Source: Amycolatopsis sp. 2-15
Lineage (GTDB): Bacteria; Actinomycetota; Actinomycetes; Mycobacteriales; Pseudonocardiaceae
Direction: 5' to 3'
DNA: 64,000 nt
Assembly (NCBI RefSeq): GCF_030285625.1
Contig: NZ_CP127294.1
Location: 2,118,001-2,182,000 of the forward strand
In this document: piece by piece, positions 56,472-62,526 of the stretch
How the letters are laid out: each line of letters begins with the position of its first letter
How positions within the stretch are numbered: the stretch's first letter is position 1
Translations under genes and position numbers: made by a program
Notes under the pieces: model-generated
Told to the model about the DNA's origin: nothing
Seen by the model: only the letters and a program-made list of their open reading frames with translations
Databases searched by the model: none

Positions 56472-57489
56472 CCGGCCAACTTACGCATCGGTGGCGGGGT
56501 TTTGTTGCGGTTTGGGGAGGGGACGCACGTTCGGCTGGGCGGGGTGTGGGTTTGCGGTGGGAGGGGACTGGTGGGGTGGGGTTGGTTGTGTGGTGGGACC
56601 GGTCGGGCCGCGGGTTTGCTGCGCGAGGGGACCGCTCGGGCCGGGTTTGCTGTGCGAGGGGGCTGGTGGGGCCGGGTTGGTTGTGCGAGGGGACCGCTCC
56701 GGCCGGGTTGGTTGTGCGAGGGGACCGCTCCGGCCGGGTTGGTTGTGCGAGGGGGCTGGTGGGGCCGGGTTGGTTGTGCGAGGGGACCGCTCCGGCCGAG
56801 TTTGCCGCGCGAGGGGACCGGTTGTGCCATCGCCGGGCGCGAGGGGAGGGTGGGGCCGGGAGGCAGGTTGGACCAGTCGCGCCGGGTTGGCCGCGCGAAT
56901 GGACCGGTCGTGCCATCGCAGGGGCGCGAGGGGACCGGTCGCGCCAAATTCCTGCTAGCGAGTGGGCCGGCCGGGTCAGGTCGGCGACGCGGCTGGACCG
57001 GGCGTCGCGTGCCGGCGGGGCGCGATGGGACCGCTGGTGCCGAGTCGGGGCCTGCGATGGGACCAGTCGTGCCGCGTCGGTGGTGCGACTGGACTTCTGA
57101 TGCCGGGTTTACCGCGCGAGGGGACGTGTCATGGCGAGCTCGCGAGTGGACTTCTCGCGCCGTGCGTTGCGAAGGGACCCGTCGTGCGGGGCGGTGATGC
57201 GAGGGCCCGATCGGGCAGAGTTCGCTGCGTGAGTGGACCGGTGGGGTGGACCGGTCGTGCCGTCGCAGGGGCGCGAGTGGACCGGTCGTGCGCGGTCGGC
57301 GGGGCGAGGGGGCCAGTGGGGCCAGCGGGGCCAAGCCAGCGGTGCGAGGGGACAGGTCGTGGCCCGTGGCACGAGTGGACTTCTCGCGCCTACTTCCGGC
57401 GGGCGAGGGGACCCGGCAGACGGGAACGACGACGCCGGCGTCACCTCCCGATGGCGGTCGGGCGGTGGCGCCGGCGTCGAGGGGCCCGG
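56472..57489. repeat. non-coding repeat array B (31-bp units)
   Basis: About 1 kb between the DesK-type kinase and the DUF5666 gene. Units start at 56621, 56652, 56683, 56714, 56745, 56776 and 56807, exactly 31 bp apart. The unit is close to GTGCGAGGGGACCG followed by CTCCGGCCGGGTTGGTT. Beyond 56838 the units decay (cores such as GCGAGTGGACCGGTCGTGCC) up to ~57430. As 31 is not a multiple of three, open frames across it are artefacts. It shares core and period with array A at 7.6-8.6 kb. Confidence 0.9.
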
Positions 57490-58122
57490 TCAGTTGCCGT
57501 AGCGGCGGCGGCCCTGGCCGGGCTGGCCGGTGCCGCCGGGGCCGGGGCCGCGTTGGGTGGCGGCGGTGGCGGGCTCCAGTGAGGTGGCGGTGGCGGTGGT
57601 GCCGTTGAGCTTGGCGATGACGGTGACGTTGTCGCCGGTCTTGGGGGTCGCGGCGGACTTCTGGGTGGACGAGTCGAGGACGTAGGTCTGCTTGTAGCCG
57701 TCCTTGCTGGTGAGGGTGACGGATGTCGCGCTGATCTCCGTGATGGCGCCGGTCTGGAGGCGTTCGGTGAGGTAGCCGCCTGCGTCGGTGACGACGAAGT
57801 CGCCGTGGAGGGCGTCGCGTAAGGCGGCGGCGCCGCCGAAACCGCCTGGACCGCCGGCGAAACCGCGGCGGCCGCCCGGGCCACCGAAACCGCCCGAGCC
57901 GCCGAAGCCACCCGAGCCGCCGGGGCTGCCGGGGTCTTGCTGCGCCGAAGCGTCATTGGAGCTGGTCCCCGCCCAGATCGCGAGGCCCCCGCCCACGGCG
58001 ATGACCACGGCGACGCCCGCGGCGATCGCCGTTTTGCGGCCCGACCACGACTTCTTCGGGGCCGCCGGCGGCTCGCCGCCAGAGGCGCCCCACGTGGCGC
58101 CCTGCGCTGGATCGGTCGTCAT
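57490..58122 (-). CDS. membrane-anchored Gly-rich DUF5666 protein
   Basis: 210 aa. An N-terminal cytosolic stretch, one transmembrane helix (KTAIAAGVAVVIAVGGGLAI, ~30-49), a Gly/Phe-rich linker (~65-95), then a small beta domain (GAITEISATSVTLTSKDGYK, TGDNVTVIAKLNGTTATATS) of the DUF5666 type. It is predicted to be anchored with the domain outside. The divergent region to the response regulator carries three CTGTG words in phase with its strand, so it is probably a direct target of that regulator. GGAGGAAAACACC precedes ATG 58122. Confidence 0.82.
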   Translation of the reverse strand: MTTDPAQGATWGASGGEPPAAPKKSWSGRKTAIAAGVAVVIAVGGGLAIWAGTSSNDASAQQDPGSPGGSGGFGGSGGFGGPGGRRGFAGGPGGFGGAAALRDALHGDFVVTDAGGYLTERLQTGAITEISATSVTLTSKDGYKQTYVLDSSTQKSAATPKTGDNVTVIAKLNGTTATATSLEPATAATQRGPGPGGTGQPGQGRRRYGN

Positions 58123-58171
58123 GGTGTTTTCCTCCGGGTCTTGACTGTCCGACCGAGAGTCGCGGCCGCCG

Positions 58172-58265
58172 CTGTGCGGGAGCTGTGTCCGGAGTGGGTT
58201 GCGGCTGTGCAAGAGAGCCACGAACGGCTGAACCACCGCACAGGAAACGCACAGCCGCCGCACAG
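58172..58265. promoter_or_regulatory. PhoP-box-like direct repeats, divergent promoter
   Basis: Minus strand: CTGTG (CACAG reversed) at 58172, 58183 and 58205, spaced 11 and 22 bp. Plus strand: CACAG at 58239, 58250 and 58261, each 11 bp apart. The mycobacterial PhoP box is two TCACAGC repeats with 4 bp between them, also an 11-bp period. Each side points toward its own gene (DUF5666 gene left, regulator gene right). Confidence 0.75.
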
Positions 58266-58298
58266 CTCGGCCTGAACACCGGGCCCGAGGATGGCACC

Positions 58299-59048
58299 AT
58301 GAGCAGTATGAACGCGACGTCGCCTGGCCGGGGCAAGGACGAGCTGCGCCGCGCCGACGGCAGCCCGGTGCGGGTGCTGGTGGTGGACGACGAGTCGACG
58401 CTGGCCGAGCTCGTCGCCATGGCGCTGCGCATGGAGGGCTGGGAGGTGCGCAGCGCGGGCGACGGCACGGAGGCCGTCCGCGTAGCGCGCGACTTCCGGC
58501 CCGACGCCGTGGTGCTCGACGTGATGCTGCCCGACTTCGACGGTCTAGAGGTGCTGCGCCGCATGCGTGCCGAGGCGCCGTTCCTGCCGGTGCTGTTCCT
58601 CACCGCCAAGGACGCCGTCGAAGACCGCATCGCCGGCCTCACCGCGGGCGGCGACGACTACGTCACCAAACCCTTCAGCCTCGAAGAAGTCGCACTGCGG
58701 CTCCGCGCCCTCCTCAGGCGCGCCAACGGGGTGACGGGCGCGAGCGGTTCGCAGCTCGTGGTCGGCGACCTGACGCTCGACGAGGACAGCCGCGAGGTGC
58801 ATCGCGGCGGCGACCTCGTGCCGCTCACGGCCACGGAGTTCGAGCTGTTGCGCTACCTCATGCGCAACCCCAAGCGCGTGCTGAGCAAGGCGCAGATCCT
58901 CGACCGCGTGTGGAGCTACGACTTCGGCGGCCAGGCCAACATCGTCGAGCTCTACATCTCCTATCTGCGCAAGAAGATCGACGCCGACCGCGAGCCCATG
59001 ATCCACACGATGCGCGGCGCGGGGTATGTCCTCAAGCCCGCCGGCTGA
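58299..59048 (+). CDS. PhoP-like OmpR-family response regulator
   Basis: 249 aa. Receiver: VRVLVVDDES, phospho-acceptor Asp74 (AVVLDVMLPDFDGLEVL), Thr/Lys in FLTAKDAVED and DDYVTKPFSLEE (Lys124). Winged helix ~150-245: LTATEFELLRYLMRNPKRVL, ILDRVWSYDFGGQANIVELY, ISYLRKKID. The recognition region is very close to M. tuberculosis PhoP (ILDHVWRYDFGGDVNVVESY). ATG 58299 follows GAGGATGGCACC. It overlaps the kinase gene by 23 bases. The CACAG repeats with 11-bp period found at 58172-58265 and 60556-60593 fit a PhoP-type binding mode. Confidence 0.93.
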   Translation: MSSMNATSPGRGKDELRRADGSPVRVLVVDDESTLAELVAMALRMEGWEVRSAGDGTEAVRVARDFRPDAVVLDVMLPDFDGLEVLRRMRAEAPFLPVLFLTAKDAVEDRIAGLTAGGDDYVTKPFSLEEVALRLRALLRRANGVTGASGSQLVVGDLTLDEDSREVHRGGDLVPLTATEFELLRYLMRNPKRVLSKAQILDRVWSYDFGGQANIVELYISYLRKKIDADREPMIHTMRGAGYVLKPAG

Positions 59049-60549
59049 CGCGCCCGCGGGCCGCGCGCGCCGGCCGTGGTCGCTGCGGCGCCGGCTGATC
59101 GTGCAGCTGGCGGCGCTGCTGGCGCTCGTCTGCCTGGTCGTCGGCGTGGTCACGGAGTTCGCGCTGCAGGACTTCCTCGTCGGCCAGGTCGACAAGCGCC
59201 TCGCCGCGGCGACCGACCGCGGCTTCCGCAGTGGCGACCGGCCACCGTGGATCTACGGCGACAAACCGCCCCCCGACCCGCTGCGTGTGCTCGGCCAGGG
59301 CGACGGCACGCTCGCCGTCCAGGTCCACAACGGCGCGGTGCGCGCGGCCGTGCTCAACTTCGGCTCCGCTACGCCGTCGAAGGTCAAGCCGCCGCTGCAA
59401 TCGGTCTCCACCGCGCAGCAGAAGCTGCTGCTCGGCCTCCCGCCCGACGGCCACCGCCGCACCATCGACCTCGGCGGCGACCTCGGTGAGTACCGGGTGA
59501 TCGCGTCGTTCTCGCCGTCGGGTGATTTCTCGGTGGTCGGCCTGCCGCTCTCGGACGTCACGGACACGTTGTGGCGCTTGGGATTCATCTTCGGCGGCGT
59601 CGCGCTCGGCGGCATCCTCGTGGCCGGCGTCGCGGGCGCCGTCACGATCCGGCGCACCATGGCGCCGCTCGACCGGCTCGCCGCCACCGCGTCGCGCGTG
59701 TCGGAGCTGCAGCTCGACCGCGGTGAGGTGGCGCTGTCGGAGCGGGTGCCCGAAGTGGACACGGACCCGCGCACCGAGGTCGGCAAGGTCGGCTTCGCGC
59801 TTAACCGCATGCTCGGCCACATCGCCAACGCGCTGAAAGCCCGCCAGGCCAGCGAAAGCCGCGTGCGCCAGTTCGTCGCCGACGCGAGCCACGAGCTGCG
59901 CACGCCGCTGGCCGCCATCCGCGGCTACGCCGAGCTCACGCGCCGCAGCCAGGAGCAGGTGCCGCCCGACGTCGCGTTCGCCATGAACCGCGTCGAGTCC
60001 GAGTCGGCGCGCATGACGACGCTGGTGGAGGACCTGCTGCTGCTCGCCCGGCTCGACTCCGGCCGCCCCGTCGTGCCCGAGCCGGTGGACCTCTCGCGCC
60101 TGGTGGCCGACGCCGTAGCCGACTCCCACGTGGCCGGCCCCGACCACAAGTGGCGGCTCGAAGCGCCCGGCGAGCCGATCAGCGTCCTCGGCGACGCCGG
60201 CCAGCTGCACCAGGTCGTGCTCAACCTCCTGGGCAACGCCCGCACCCACACCCCGCCCGGCACCACCGTGACCACGGCACTGTCCACACAGGACGGCTGG
60301 GTGCGGCTCTCGGTGCTCGACGACGGCCCGGGTATCCCGCCCGAAATCCTGCCGGACGTGTTCGAACGCTTCGCCCGCGGCGACAACTCACGCTCCCGCG
60401 CGGCCGGCAGCACGGGCCTCGGCCTGGCCATCGTCGCCGCCGTCGTGGCCGCGCACAGCGGCCGCGTCTCGGTGTTCAGTGAGCCCGGACGAACAGAGTT
60501 TGTCGCAATGTTCCCGGAGTTCCGTGACCCGGCTATCACCCGGTCGTGA
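59026..60549 (+). CDS. membrane sensor histidine kinase paired with the PhoP-like regulator
   Basis: 507 aa. TM1 at ~23-45 (LIVQLAALLALVCLVVGVVT), an extracytoplasmic sensor of ~130 residues, TM2 at ~183-205, HAMP (~207-275: TIRRTMAPLDRLAATASRVS), HisKA with His289 in VADASHELRTPLAAIRGYAE, and HATPase with NLLGNARTHTPPGT, VLDDGPGIPPE and GSTGLGLAIVAAVVAAH. ATG 59026 lies inside the regulator gene, so they are coupled. Signal unknown. Confidence 0.93.
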   Translation: MSSSPPADAPAGRARRPWSLRRRLIVQLAALLALVCLVVGVVTEFALQDFLVGQVDKRLAAATDRGFRSGDRPPWIYGDKPPPDPLRVLGQGDGTLAVQVHNGAVRAAVLNFGSATPSKVKPPLQSVSTAQQKLLLGLPPDGHRRTIDLGGDLGEYRVIASFSPSGDFSVVGLPLSDVTDTLWRLGFIFGGVALGGILVAGVAGAVTIRRTMAPLDRLAATASRVSELQLDRGEVALSERVPEVDTDPRTEVGKVGFALNRMLGHIANALKARQASESRVRQFVADASHELRTPLAAIRGYAELTRRSQEQVPPDVAFAMNRVESESARMTTLVEDLLLLARLDSGRPVVPEPVDLSRLVADAVADSHVAGPDHKWRLEAPGEPISVLGDAGQLHQVVLNLLGNARTHTPPGTTVTTALSTQDGWVRLSVLDDGPGIPPEILPDVFERFARGDNSRSRAAGSTGLGLAIVAAVVAAHSGRVSVFSEPGRTEFVAMFPEFRDPAITRS

Positions 60550-60555
60550 ATTTCT

Positions 60556-60593
60556 CACAGGACGCGCACAGGAAGCGCACAAGGAGCCCACAA
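60556..60593 (+). promoter_or_regulatory. PhoP-box-like direct repeats upstream of the GT39 gene
   Basis: CACAG at 60556 and 60567, then CACAA at 60578 and 60589, each exactly 11 bp apart, ending 22 bases before the ATG at 60616. The embedded CACAGGA words match those in the 58.2 kb intergenic region. Confidence 0.75.
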
Positions 60594-60615
60594 ACCGCGT
60601 CGTGAGCATGGCCGC

Positions 60616-62526
60616 ATGACGAGTGCCCTCACCGCGCCCGGACCGACCACAGTGGACCCGACGCCCGCGGCCCCGCCCGTGGAGCAGCCCAGATGGGTGC
60701 GGCCGGCGGTTGCGGTGCTCCTGGTCGCGACCGCTGCGCTGTATGTCACCGATGTTGCGATTTCGGGCTGGGGCAACGACTTCTACGCCATGGCCGTGCA
60801 GGCCGGTACCGAGAGCTGGAAGGCGTGGTTCTTCGGCTCGCTCGATCCGGGCAACGTGGTCACGGTCGACAAACCACCGTTTTCGCTGTGGGTCATGGGG
60901 CTTTCGGGCCGGATCTTCGGCTTCTCCAGCTGGAGCCTGCTGGTGCCCGACGCGCTGGCGGGCGTCGCGTCCGTCGGCCTGCTCTACCTCGCGGTGCGGC
61001 GCCTGTCCGGCCCCGGCACCGGGTTGCTCGCGGGCTCCGCGCTCGCGTTGACGCCCGTCGCGGCACTGATGTTCCGCTTCGACAACCCCGACGCGTTCCT
61101 CGTGCTGCTCCTGGTCGCCGGCGGCTACTGCGTGGTGCGCGCGCTGGAGCGGGCGAGCACGAAGTGGCTGTTGCTCGCGGGCGTCGCGATCGGGTTCGGG
61201 TTCCTCGACAAGATGCTGCAGGCCTTCCTGGTGCTGCCGGCGTTCGTGCTCGCCTACGCGGTGGCGGCGCCGACGTCGCTCGGCCGGCGCCTGTGGCAGC
61301 TGCTCGCCGCGGCCGGTGCGGTGCTCGTGTCGGCGGGGTGGTGGGTGCTGGCCGTCGCGCTGTGGCCCGTTGCCGACCGGCCCTACATCAGTGGTTCCAC
61401 GAACAACAGCGTGCTGGAGCTGGCCTTCGGCTACAACGGATTGGGCCGGATCTTCGGCCAGGGTCACGGCGGTGCTGGCGCCCGGCCCGAGCTGCCGGCC
61501 GGCTTAGACCTGCCGAACCGGGCCGGCGGAGGTGGCGGCTTTCGCGGCTTCGGCGGCGGCACGGGCCTGACGCGGCTGTTCACCGAGCAGTTCGGCGGCG
61601 AGGCGTCGTGGCTGCTGCCCGCCGCGTTGATCGGGCTCGTCGCCGGGCTGTGGTTCACCCGCCGCGCCCCGCGCACCGACCGCAGCCGCGCCGCGCTGCT
61701 GCTGTGGGGCGGCTGGATGGTCGTCTCGGTCGTGGTCTTCAGCTACATGAGCGGGATCATCCACCCGTACTACACGGTGGCGCTCGCGCCCGGCGTCGCC
61801 GCGACGATCGGCATCGCGGCCTGCGAGCTGTGGCGCGGCCGGGCGCGCTTCGCCCCGCGCGCGGTACTCGCCCTGATGCTGGCCACCACCGCCGTGTGGG
61901 CGTTCATCCTGCTCGCCCGGACGCCGGAGTGGCAGCCGTGGCTGCGCTACGCCGTGCTCGTGCTGGGCGCGCTCGCCACCGCGGCCGTGCTCTTCGGCGT
62001 CGACTCGCTCCGCCGCGCGGCGCCGGTCGTCGCCGTGCTCGGGCTCGTGGCGACGCTGCTCGGCACGGCTTCGTTCACCGTCGTCACGGCCGCGACGGCG
62101 CACACCGGCGGCCAGCCGTCGTCGGGGCCGGCGGGGCAGCGTGGCGGCGGTGGGTTGCGCGGCGGCGGCTTCGGTGGGTTCGGTGGGACGGTGGAGTCCA
62201 CAGTGGATCTTGATCGACTTCTCCAGGCGACCACCACGAAGTGGGCCGCCGCGCAGACCGGCGCCATGCAGTCGGCCGGTCTCGCGCTGAGCAGCGGCAA
62301 GCCCGTGATGGCCATCGGCGGCTTCAGTGGCAGCGACCCGGCGCCGACGCTCGCGCAGTTCCAGCAGTACGTCGGCGCCGGCGAGGTGCACTACTTCGTG
62401 GCAGGCGGCCGCGGTGGCTTCGGCGGCAACCGCGGCACGGCCGGGCAGATCACCACGTGGGTCGAGCAGAACTTCCCCGCGACGACCGTCGGCGGCACGA
62501 CCGTCTACGACCTCACGCGAAAGTAA
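60616..62526 (+). CDS. GT39/ArnT-like membrane glycosyltransferase (YkcB type)
   Basis: 636 aa with about 11-13 transmembrane helices. Family signatures: an acidic periplasmic loop after TM1 (WGNDFYAMAVQAGTESWKAW) and FFGSLDPGNVVTVDKPPFSL; MFRFDNPDAFLVLLLVAG; GFLDKMLQAFLVLPAF; a Gly-rich loop (RAGGGGGFRGFGGGTGLTRL). A soluble C-terminal domain (~530-636) ends TTVGGTTVYDLTRK. Transfers sugar from a polyprenyl carrier to an envelope acceptor. CACAG repeats in its promoter place it under the adjacent two-component system. Overlaps the convergent dehydratase by 14 bases. Confidence 0.9.
   Translation: MTSALTAPGPTTVDPTPAAPPVEQPRWVRPAVAVLLVATAALYVTDVAISGWGNDFYAMAVQAGTESWKAWFFGSLDPGNVVTVDKPPFSLWVMGLSGRIFGFSSWSLLVPDALAGVASVGLLYLAVRRLSGPGTGLLAGSALALTPVAALMFRFDNPDAFLVLLLVAGGYCVVRALERASTKWLLLAGVAIGFGFLDKMLQAFLVLPAFVLAYAVAAPTSLGRRLWQLLAAAGAVLVSAGWWVLAVALWPVADRPYISGSTNNSVLELAFGYNGLGRIFGQGHGGAGARPELPAGLDLPNRAGGGGGFRGFGGGTGLTRLFTEQFGGEASWLLPAALIGLVAGLWFTRRAPRTDRSRAALLLWGGWMVVSVVVFSYMSGIIHPYYTVALAPGVAATIGIAACELWRGRARFAPRAVLALMLATTAVWAFILLARTPEWQPWLRYAVLVLGALATAAVLFGVDSLRRAAPVVAVLGLVATLLGTASFTVVTAATAHTGGQPSSGPAGQRGGGGLRGGGFGGFGGTVESTVDLDRLLQATTTKWAAAQTGAMQSAGLALSSGKPVMAIGGFSGSDPAPTLAQFQQYVGAGEVHYFVAGGRGGFGGNRGTAGQITTWVEQNFPATTVGGTTVYDLTRK

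Follow-up and report, generated by a model that had tools for sequence, protein, structure and literature searches.

Four-unit arrays of 11-bp direct repeats with the core word CACAG precede three genes or operons in a 64,000-nt stretch of the Amycolatopsis sp. 2-15 genome (NZ_CP127294.1, positions 2,118,001-2,182,000; hereafter the window). These encode a DUF5666-like anchored protein, a response regulator with its sensor kinase, and a GT39 glycosyltransferase. The arrays are of a known kind, the PhoP-type direct repeats. They very probably serve as operators for the PhoP-like response regulator whose gene lies among them, which would activate an envelope-glycosylation regulon from promoters phased to their −10 elements. 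An earlier sequence-only reading of the window had suggested that one regulator controls an anchored envelope protein and a glycosyltransferase. This view is supported by the arrays, by the genes behind them and by the co-occurrence of arrays and regulator, which together point to binding by this regulator.

A word search of the window found CACAG on the plus strand at 58239, 58250, 58261, 60556 and 60567, and CTGTG, i.e., CACAG on the minus strand, at 58172, 58183 and 58205. CACAA follows on the plus strand at 60578 and 60589. The sequence-only reading had the coordinates and the phase of these words right, but not their number, as it spoke of seven where eight CACAG and two CACAA words are listed. 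In 100 dinucleotide shuffles of the window, which served as chance control, CACAG-N6-CACAG occurred 0.18 times on average compared to four matches in the window, and CACA-N7-CACA-N7-CACA 0.00 times compared to three. The repeat words are confirmed as real, and the complete unit is larger than first noted, consisting of four 11-bp half-sites and a −10-like element. The words at 58183 and 58205 are 22 bp, or two periods, apart and enclose a degenerate half-site CCCACTCCGGA (58198-58188, minus strand; CCCAC), and the plus-strand triplet is followed by a fourth, degenerate unit CTGAACACCGG at 58272-58282.

All three window promoters carry an array together with a −10-like element. The array of the DUF5666-like gene (58166..58209, minus strand; profile score 28.0) reads CACAGCCGCAA CCCACTCCGGA CACAGCTCCCG CACAGCGGCGG with a degenerate unit 2, and its −10-like element GACTCT is located at 58156..58161 on the same strand, 15 nt past the start of unit 4. 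The array of the regulator-kinase operon (58239..58282, plus strand; score 40.3) reads CACAGGAAACG CACAGCCGCCG CACAGCTCGGC CTGAACACCGG with a degenerate unit 4 and is followed by GAGGAT at 58287..58292 (plus strand), and that of the GT39 gene (60556..60599, plus strand; score 53.2) reads CACAGGACGCG CACAGGAAGCG CACAAGGAGCC CACAAACCGCG and is followed by GAGCAT at 60604..60609 (plus strand). A NANNNT hexamer thus starts 15 nt past the unit-4 start in 3/3 window arrays. The ATG codons of the regulator (58299) and of GT39 (60616) lie 27 nt past the unit-4 start, where a transcript from the −10 element should begin, and for this reason both genes are predicted to be leaderless. For the DUF5666-like gene, transcription is predicted to start at about 58148-58149, with a leader and a Shine-Dalgarno (SD) sequence; its ATG at 58122 is preceded by a leader containing GGAGGA.

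For the comparison with relatives, the best 80 loci of regulator relatives (L036-L115; 958,526 bases) were used, the query for the regulator searches being 58302-59048. Chains of three or more CACA units occur there 83 times at a period of 11 and once each at periods of 12 and 15, and none was found at periods 7-10, 13, 14, 16 and 17; with eleven control words, no more than one chain each was obtained. The geometry was analyzed with 88 arrays picked by three CACA units only, of which 83 are from the relative loci, three from a second locus of the own genome (L006, described below) and two from the window. The unit-4 A and the A and T of the −10 element are each present in 83/88 arrays (42/47 after removal of similar rows), and a start codon is located at unit-4 offset 27 or 28 in 82/88 (41/47). 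When each genus contributed a single row per gene class, 33/38 rows had NANNNT at offset 15, and none of the other offsets between 8 and 29 had it in more than 6/38. SD-like words were found ahead of 19 of the 143 array-linked starts, and no −35 hexamer separate from the array stands out in the columns of the 88 arrays. In unit 1, the core word CACAG is preceded by T in 46 arrays and by G in 23, its fifth letter is G in 87, and G or C follows it in 83. The arrays thus consist of TCACAGC-like 7-mers in direct repetition with a 4-bp spacer, as in the PhoP box, the period of 11 being given by the selection.

A profile built from 39 non-redundant arrays and applied with a cut-off of 15 bits detected 178 arrays in the 80 loci compared to one in the reversed sequence used as control. 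When one order at a time was left out of the profile, arrays and reversed controls numbered 92/1, 31/0, 18/1, 24/0 and 8/0. The genes downstream of the 178 arrays encode the regulator (62), GT39 (36), GT2 (36), DUF5666-like proteins (29) and unassigned products (15), so that 163/178 precede regulator, GT39, GT2-GtrA or DUF5666-like genes. Counted over the loci that contain the respective gene, an array lies ahead of it in 62/80 loci for the regulator, 36/61 for GT39, 34/46 for GT2 and 29/30 for the DUF5666-like gene; the regulator arrays span 23 genus-level groups, one of which is a metagenome-assembled genome. Start codons at offsets 26-28, the leaderless position, occur in 60/62 regulator, 28/36 GT39, 36/36 GT2, 10/29 DUF5666-like and 9/15 unassigned genes. 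An alignment of the region between the DUF5666-like and regulator genes from the window and 8/15 Amycolatopsis loci shows no change in any of the three plus-strand CACAG words. The nearest named relative, in a list from which the own genome of the window is possibly absent, is A. saalfeldensis, whose regulator is 97% identical. The expectation that the repeats are conserved in orthologous promoters therefore held in these Amycolatopsis loci and at 62/80 regulators, and their placement upstream of the DUF5666-like, regulator-kinase and GT39 genes was found at all three and recurs in relatives.

In six Intrasporangiaceae loci (L056, L065, L067, L086, L087 and L091), small anchored proteins encoded on the minus strand, divergently from the regulator, replace the DUF5666-like gene and the array is kept. 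No DUF5666-like part was found in these proteins by phmmer, and their tails are rich in Pro, Gln and Gly. A regulator relative in a distant actinobacterium (G326; L163:1500, 232 bits) is accompanied by a triple CACAG array, by TACCTT and, in the leaderless position, by a GTG, and the arrangement may therefore predate the sampled families.

The position of the degenerate unit differs between promoter classes. In DUF5666-like arrays, unit 2 is CACA in 1/9 genera and units 3 and 4 in 9/9; in GT2 arrays, units 1-3 are CACA in 13/13 genera and unit 4 in 2/13; regulator arrays are weaker at units 3 and 4 (CACA in 11/23 and 9/23 genera). Based on these counts per genus, the position is a recurring trait of the promoter class, and it may tune the response. 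In Streptomyces, the regulator array is recurrently weakened (mostly CTCAG CACAG GAAAG CTCAG; L082, L093-L094, L096, L100-L101, L103-L104, L108-L112 and L114), and three units of the GT2 array remain perfect.

The scan of the full 10.05-Mb genome revealed five matches to CACAG-N6-CACAG-N6-CACA compared to 0 for the reversed pattern. Two are located in the window and three at 4463885-4468404, 2.3 Mb away, in locus L006. This locus encodes a GT2-GtrA fusion (L006:7555-8925; PF00535, E 2.6e-24; PF04138, E 5e-12) with a GT39 behind it, as well as another GT39, a histidine kinase and a DUF5666-like protein. Arrays of four units with the geometry of the window precede the kinase, one GT39 and the GT2-GtrA gene; at the DUF5666-like gene only units 3 and 4 are clear, and the −10 element has the usual offset. 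The kinase gene (L006:11858-13345 = G000:C1:4466857-4468344, minus strand) is termed orphan because no such regulator adjoins it: a genome search with the window regulator gave no match between 4411815 and 4636439. The orphan kinase scores 512 bits in a sequence comparison and, over the N-terminal stretch compared, is 43% identical to the window kinase. Since it has an array promoter and no adjacent regulator, a scheme in which both kinases feed one regulator is plausible. The sequence-only reading had proposed scanning the genome for CACAG-N6-CACAG pairs. Pairs proved too common (25 matches compared to 13 for the reversed control) and were rejected as a definition of the regulon, whereas the triples all fall in two loci of the target type; the regulon is instead defined by triples together with the −10 geometry. 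An origin-like cluster of CCACAG and TCCACA words at 11-bp spacing (G000:C1:1631071-1631141) is a source of false matches in CACAG scans.

The co-occurrence of regulator and repeats was analyzed in 150 genomes of the window's family, in which the regulator was called at E ≤ 1e-95, every regulator found reaching 1e-116 or better. It is present in 73/150 genomes, and the exact triple repeat occurs in 67/73 genomes with and 17/77 without it (Fisher p 3e-19, ancestry ignored). In total, 184 triple matches compared to 27 reversed ones were found in genomes with the regulator, and 20 compared to 14 in those without. Within genus g27, three genomes without the regulator have 0, 0 and 0 repeats and three with it have 2, 2 and 2; in genus g31, one genome without it has 0 and five with it have 1-5. 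For 29 of the 204 matches the family locus was examined, and 20 precede genes for response regulators, histidine kinases, GT2 or GT39 according to phmmer. Three more were assigned by their first residues to a response regulator (L010), a GT2 (L013) and a small, GtrA-looking membrane protein (L025). Across the phylum, the exact triple was found in 22/296 genomes (own genome included) compared to 10/296 in the reversed control, and 10 of 27 loci, two of which are the same place, lie before regulator or GT2 genes; outside the family of the window the exact triple is therefore a weak marker.

The best match of the regulator in the PDB is PhoP of M. tuberculosis (260.7 bits), followed by the PrrA family (195.9). 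As the nearest paralogue scores 251.4 bits against PhoP, close to the regulator itself, the regulator is no more than a candidate PhoP orthologue. The NCBIfam names for the regulator (PhoB, MtrA, CseB and others) were not used, since all 25 matches listed are below the cut-offs. In PhoP, Asn212, Val213, Glu215, Ser216, Tyr217 and Tyr220 face the bases of TCACAGC, a strict 4-bp spacer is needed, and tri- and tetra-repeats are bound tighter than pairs (He et al., 2016; PMC4832192). The claim of a PhoP-like recognition helix stands for four of the six base contacts (Asn212, Glu215, Tyr217, Tyr220), and the backbone contacts Ser219 and Arg222 are kept as well; it does not for the other two, which are replaced. 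The helix N(V/I)VELY(I/V)SYLR(K/R)K is present in 79/80 relative loci, the 80th not being parsed, with a search pattern that itself fixed Asn and Glu. Among these 79, position 213 is occupied by Val in 48 and by Ile in 31, and position 216 by Leu in 79/79. The likeness to the PhoP box noted earlier is borne out, as the TCACAGC core and the 11-bp period agree with the window arrays, and the head-to-tail direct repeats and the preference for tri- and tetra-repeats are shared too (PMC4832192). Different from M. tuberculosis are the four-unit arrays with a class-specific degenerate unit and the targets, here GT39, GT2-GtrA and DUF5666-like genes.

Several observations weigh against the assignment of the arrays to this regulator. 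Among the 80 relative loci, which were chosen as regulator neighborhoods and from which exclusivity of the regulon is therefore not readable, 18 have no regulator array at the threshold and six have no array at all despite an identical helix. Six of the 73 regulator genomes lack an exact triple, and 17/77 genomes without the regulator contain one, with two repeats in G122 and three in G077; the association is also partly due to shared ancestry. Furthermore, 6/29 family triples (L011, L017, L028, L029, L032, L034) and 17/27 phylum loci are not located before genes of these kinds. In the window regulator, Val213 is changed to Ile and Ser216 to Leu, and a 50% identical paralogue (L143, G000:C1:2772799-2773479; helix NALEVYVGYLRRK) keeps the equivalents of Asn212, Glu215, Tyr217 and Tyr220.

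With Asn, Glu and both Tyr retained in that paralogue, and with a half-site spacing that is often common to OmpR-family regulators, the arrays could be real and yet be bound by another member of the family, i.e., the 50% or the 60% paralogue. This is very unlikely, as the arrays front the gene of the neighboring regulator itself in 62/80 loci and track this regulator across the 150 genomes, and no CACA pair at period 11 is present in the 3.7-kb locus of either paralogue. For the 60% identical one, which is the nearest (L142, 9726271-9726951), the Val and His at two Tyr positions additionally disfavor it as the binder.

By position, the third and fourth half-sites coincide in part with the place expected for a −35 element, and a regulator bound there might exclude RNA polymerase and repress. 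We consider repression unlikely, since the spacing between unit 4 and the −10 element is fixed (one offset in 33/38 rows), for which a repressor site would have no need, and since a separate −35 hexamer to be covered does not appear in the columns; both arguments rest on a presumed mechanism. A reading of the words as DnaA boxes, or as a common word clustered by chance, has next to no probability. The near-matches at 1631071-1631141 resemble, by eye, an origin with TCCACA boxes, and two loci of relatives, L029 and L032, look alike; these two score 12-13 on the profile compared to 28-53 for the window arrays (the near-matches themselves were not scored), and the controls for period, word and shuffling gave values close to zero. 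DnaA boxes were rejected for the window arrays on the basis of these controls and the low scores of L029 and L032.

Activation by the window regulator would proceed as follows. Up to four regulator molecules would line up head to tail on the same side of the double helix and fill the four 11-bp half-sites. A stretch of 10 nt separates the core of the last half-site from the −10 element, and the bound chain would recruit RNA polymerase and, because of this distance, take the place of a −35 element. In its phosphorylated form, the regulator would activate the three window promoters and four at the second locus, three of them with four units and one with units 3 and 4. The activated set would comprise the regulator and its kinase, the DUF5666-like anchored OB-fold proteins, the orphan kinase, two GT39/YkcB-like enzymes with arrays of their own, and the GT2-GtrA fusion followed by a third GT39. 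The enzymes fit a three-part transmembrane glycosylation machine, in which a polyprenyl-phosphate sugar is made by GT2 and flipped by GtrA, and GT39 attaches the sugar to a putative substrate outside. As the same array layout fronts the same kinds of genes in many soil actinobacteria, one regulator probably switches on this surface-decorating system.

A comparable arrangement is that of the enterobacterial PhoB pho boxes, which are also 11-bp direct repeats about 10 bp before the −10 element and replace the −35 element, but have another word, usually two half-sites per box, and leadered mRNAs. With respect to the targets, the YclJK regulon of B. subtilis (ykcBC, yngABC) is similar in that a two-component regulator activates YkcC, YngA and YkcB, the proposed GT2, GtrA-type flippase and GT-C enzyme (PMC7961091, PMC5836110). 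It differs in phylum and regulator as well as in its upregulation at low oxygen via ResDE, and the sections of these papers on YclJK mention neither a DUF5666-like partner nor a leaderless array. The same three-step chemistry is proposed for CsbB-GtcA-YfhO in the corresponding sections (PMC5836110, PMC7961091), whereas the acceptor there is lipoteichoic acid. In the open-access literature searched, no link of this regulator to GT39, GT2 or DUF5666 targets was found; the main text of a review on two-component systems in S. coelicolor (PMC9739842) contains neither 'glycosyltransferase' nor 'GtrA', and the relevant part of PMC12455991 merely lists a DUF5666 gene, in another regulon. The glycosylation regulon was not found in this literature either, nor were four-unit arrays phased to the −10 element, their leaderless geometry or degenerate units that recur by promoter class.

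The genes behind the window arrays were annotated as follows. The response regulator (58299..59048, plus strand; 249 aa from the predicted leaderless ATG) is a PhoP-like member of the OmpR family with a receiver domain (PF00072, E 3.3e-28) and a winged-helix Trans_reg_C domain (PF00486, E 5.7e-26). The start of the sensor histidine kinase gene (59026..60549, plus strand; HAMP, HisKA, HATPase_c) overlaps its stop. The GT39 gene (60616..62526, plus strand) encodes a GT-C membrane glycosyltransferase with Gly-rich loops, whose matches to PF13231 (PMT_2, E 1.6e-31) and PF24878 (YkcB_C, E 2.7e-27) identify it as YkcB-like. The DUF5666-like protein (57490..58122, minus strand; about 210 aa) has an N-terminal transmembrane anchor (WSGRKTAIAA), a Gly-rich linker and an extracytoplasmic OB-fold domain. 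Its earlier label as a DUF5666 gene is weak: the match to PF18914 (E 0.014, 16.1 bits) is below the Pfam cut-off of 27, and the protein of the second locus has no match at E ≤ 10. Of the 20 aligned DUF5666-like members, 13 match PF18914 at E ≤ 1, the best with 3.4e-6. Gly-rich GGFGG stretches occur in both the anchored OB-fold protein (57490-58122) and GT39 (60616-62526). Next to the former, the region ~57000-57440 is GC-rich and of low complexity with many imperfect repeats of the GTGGACTTCTCGCG / GGACCGGTCGTGC type; overlapping long ORFs suggest that it extends upstream, perhaps from 56390.

A more far-reaching possibility, put forward tentatively, is that of an envelope-glycosylation switch widespread in Actinomycetota. 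In this switch, a single PhoP-like regulator would form a tandem tetramer on operators that stand at a fixed place in promoters, most of which are leaderless. Which half-site is weakened (unit 2 in DUF5666-like, unit 4 in GT2, units 3-4 in regulator arrays) would set the order and sensitivity of each target, and the array-driven orphan kinase would feed the same regulator. With the regulon predicted here from sequence, a widespread two-component system, on which the open-access literature searched yielded no study, gains a concrete set of targets tied to a transmembrane glycosylation machine, and the DUF5666-like proteins, which are rarely named in the open-access literature searched, gain a candidate pathway. 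Furthermore, the arrays provide a natural series for how a PhoP-type tandem oligomer recognizes rows of three or four half-sites and switches on leaderless promoters, and this series from harmless soil bacteria bears on the mode of action of PhoP itself.

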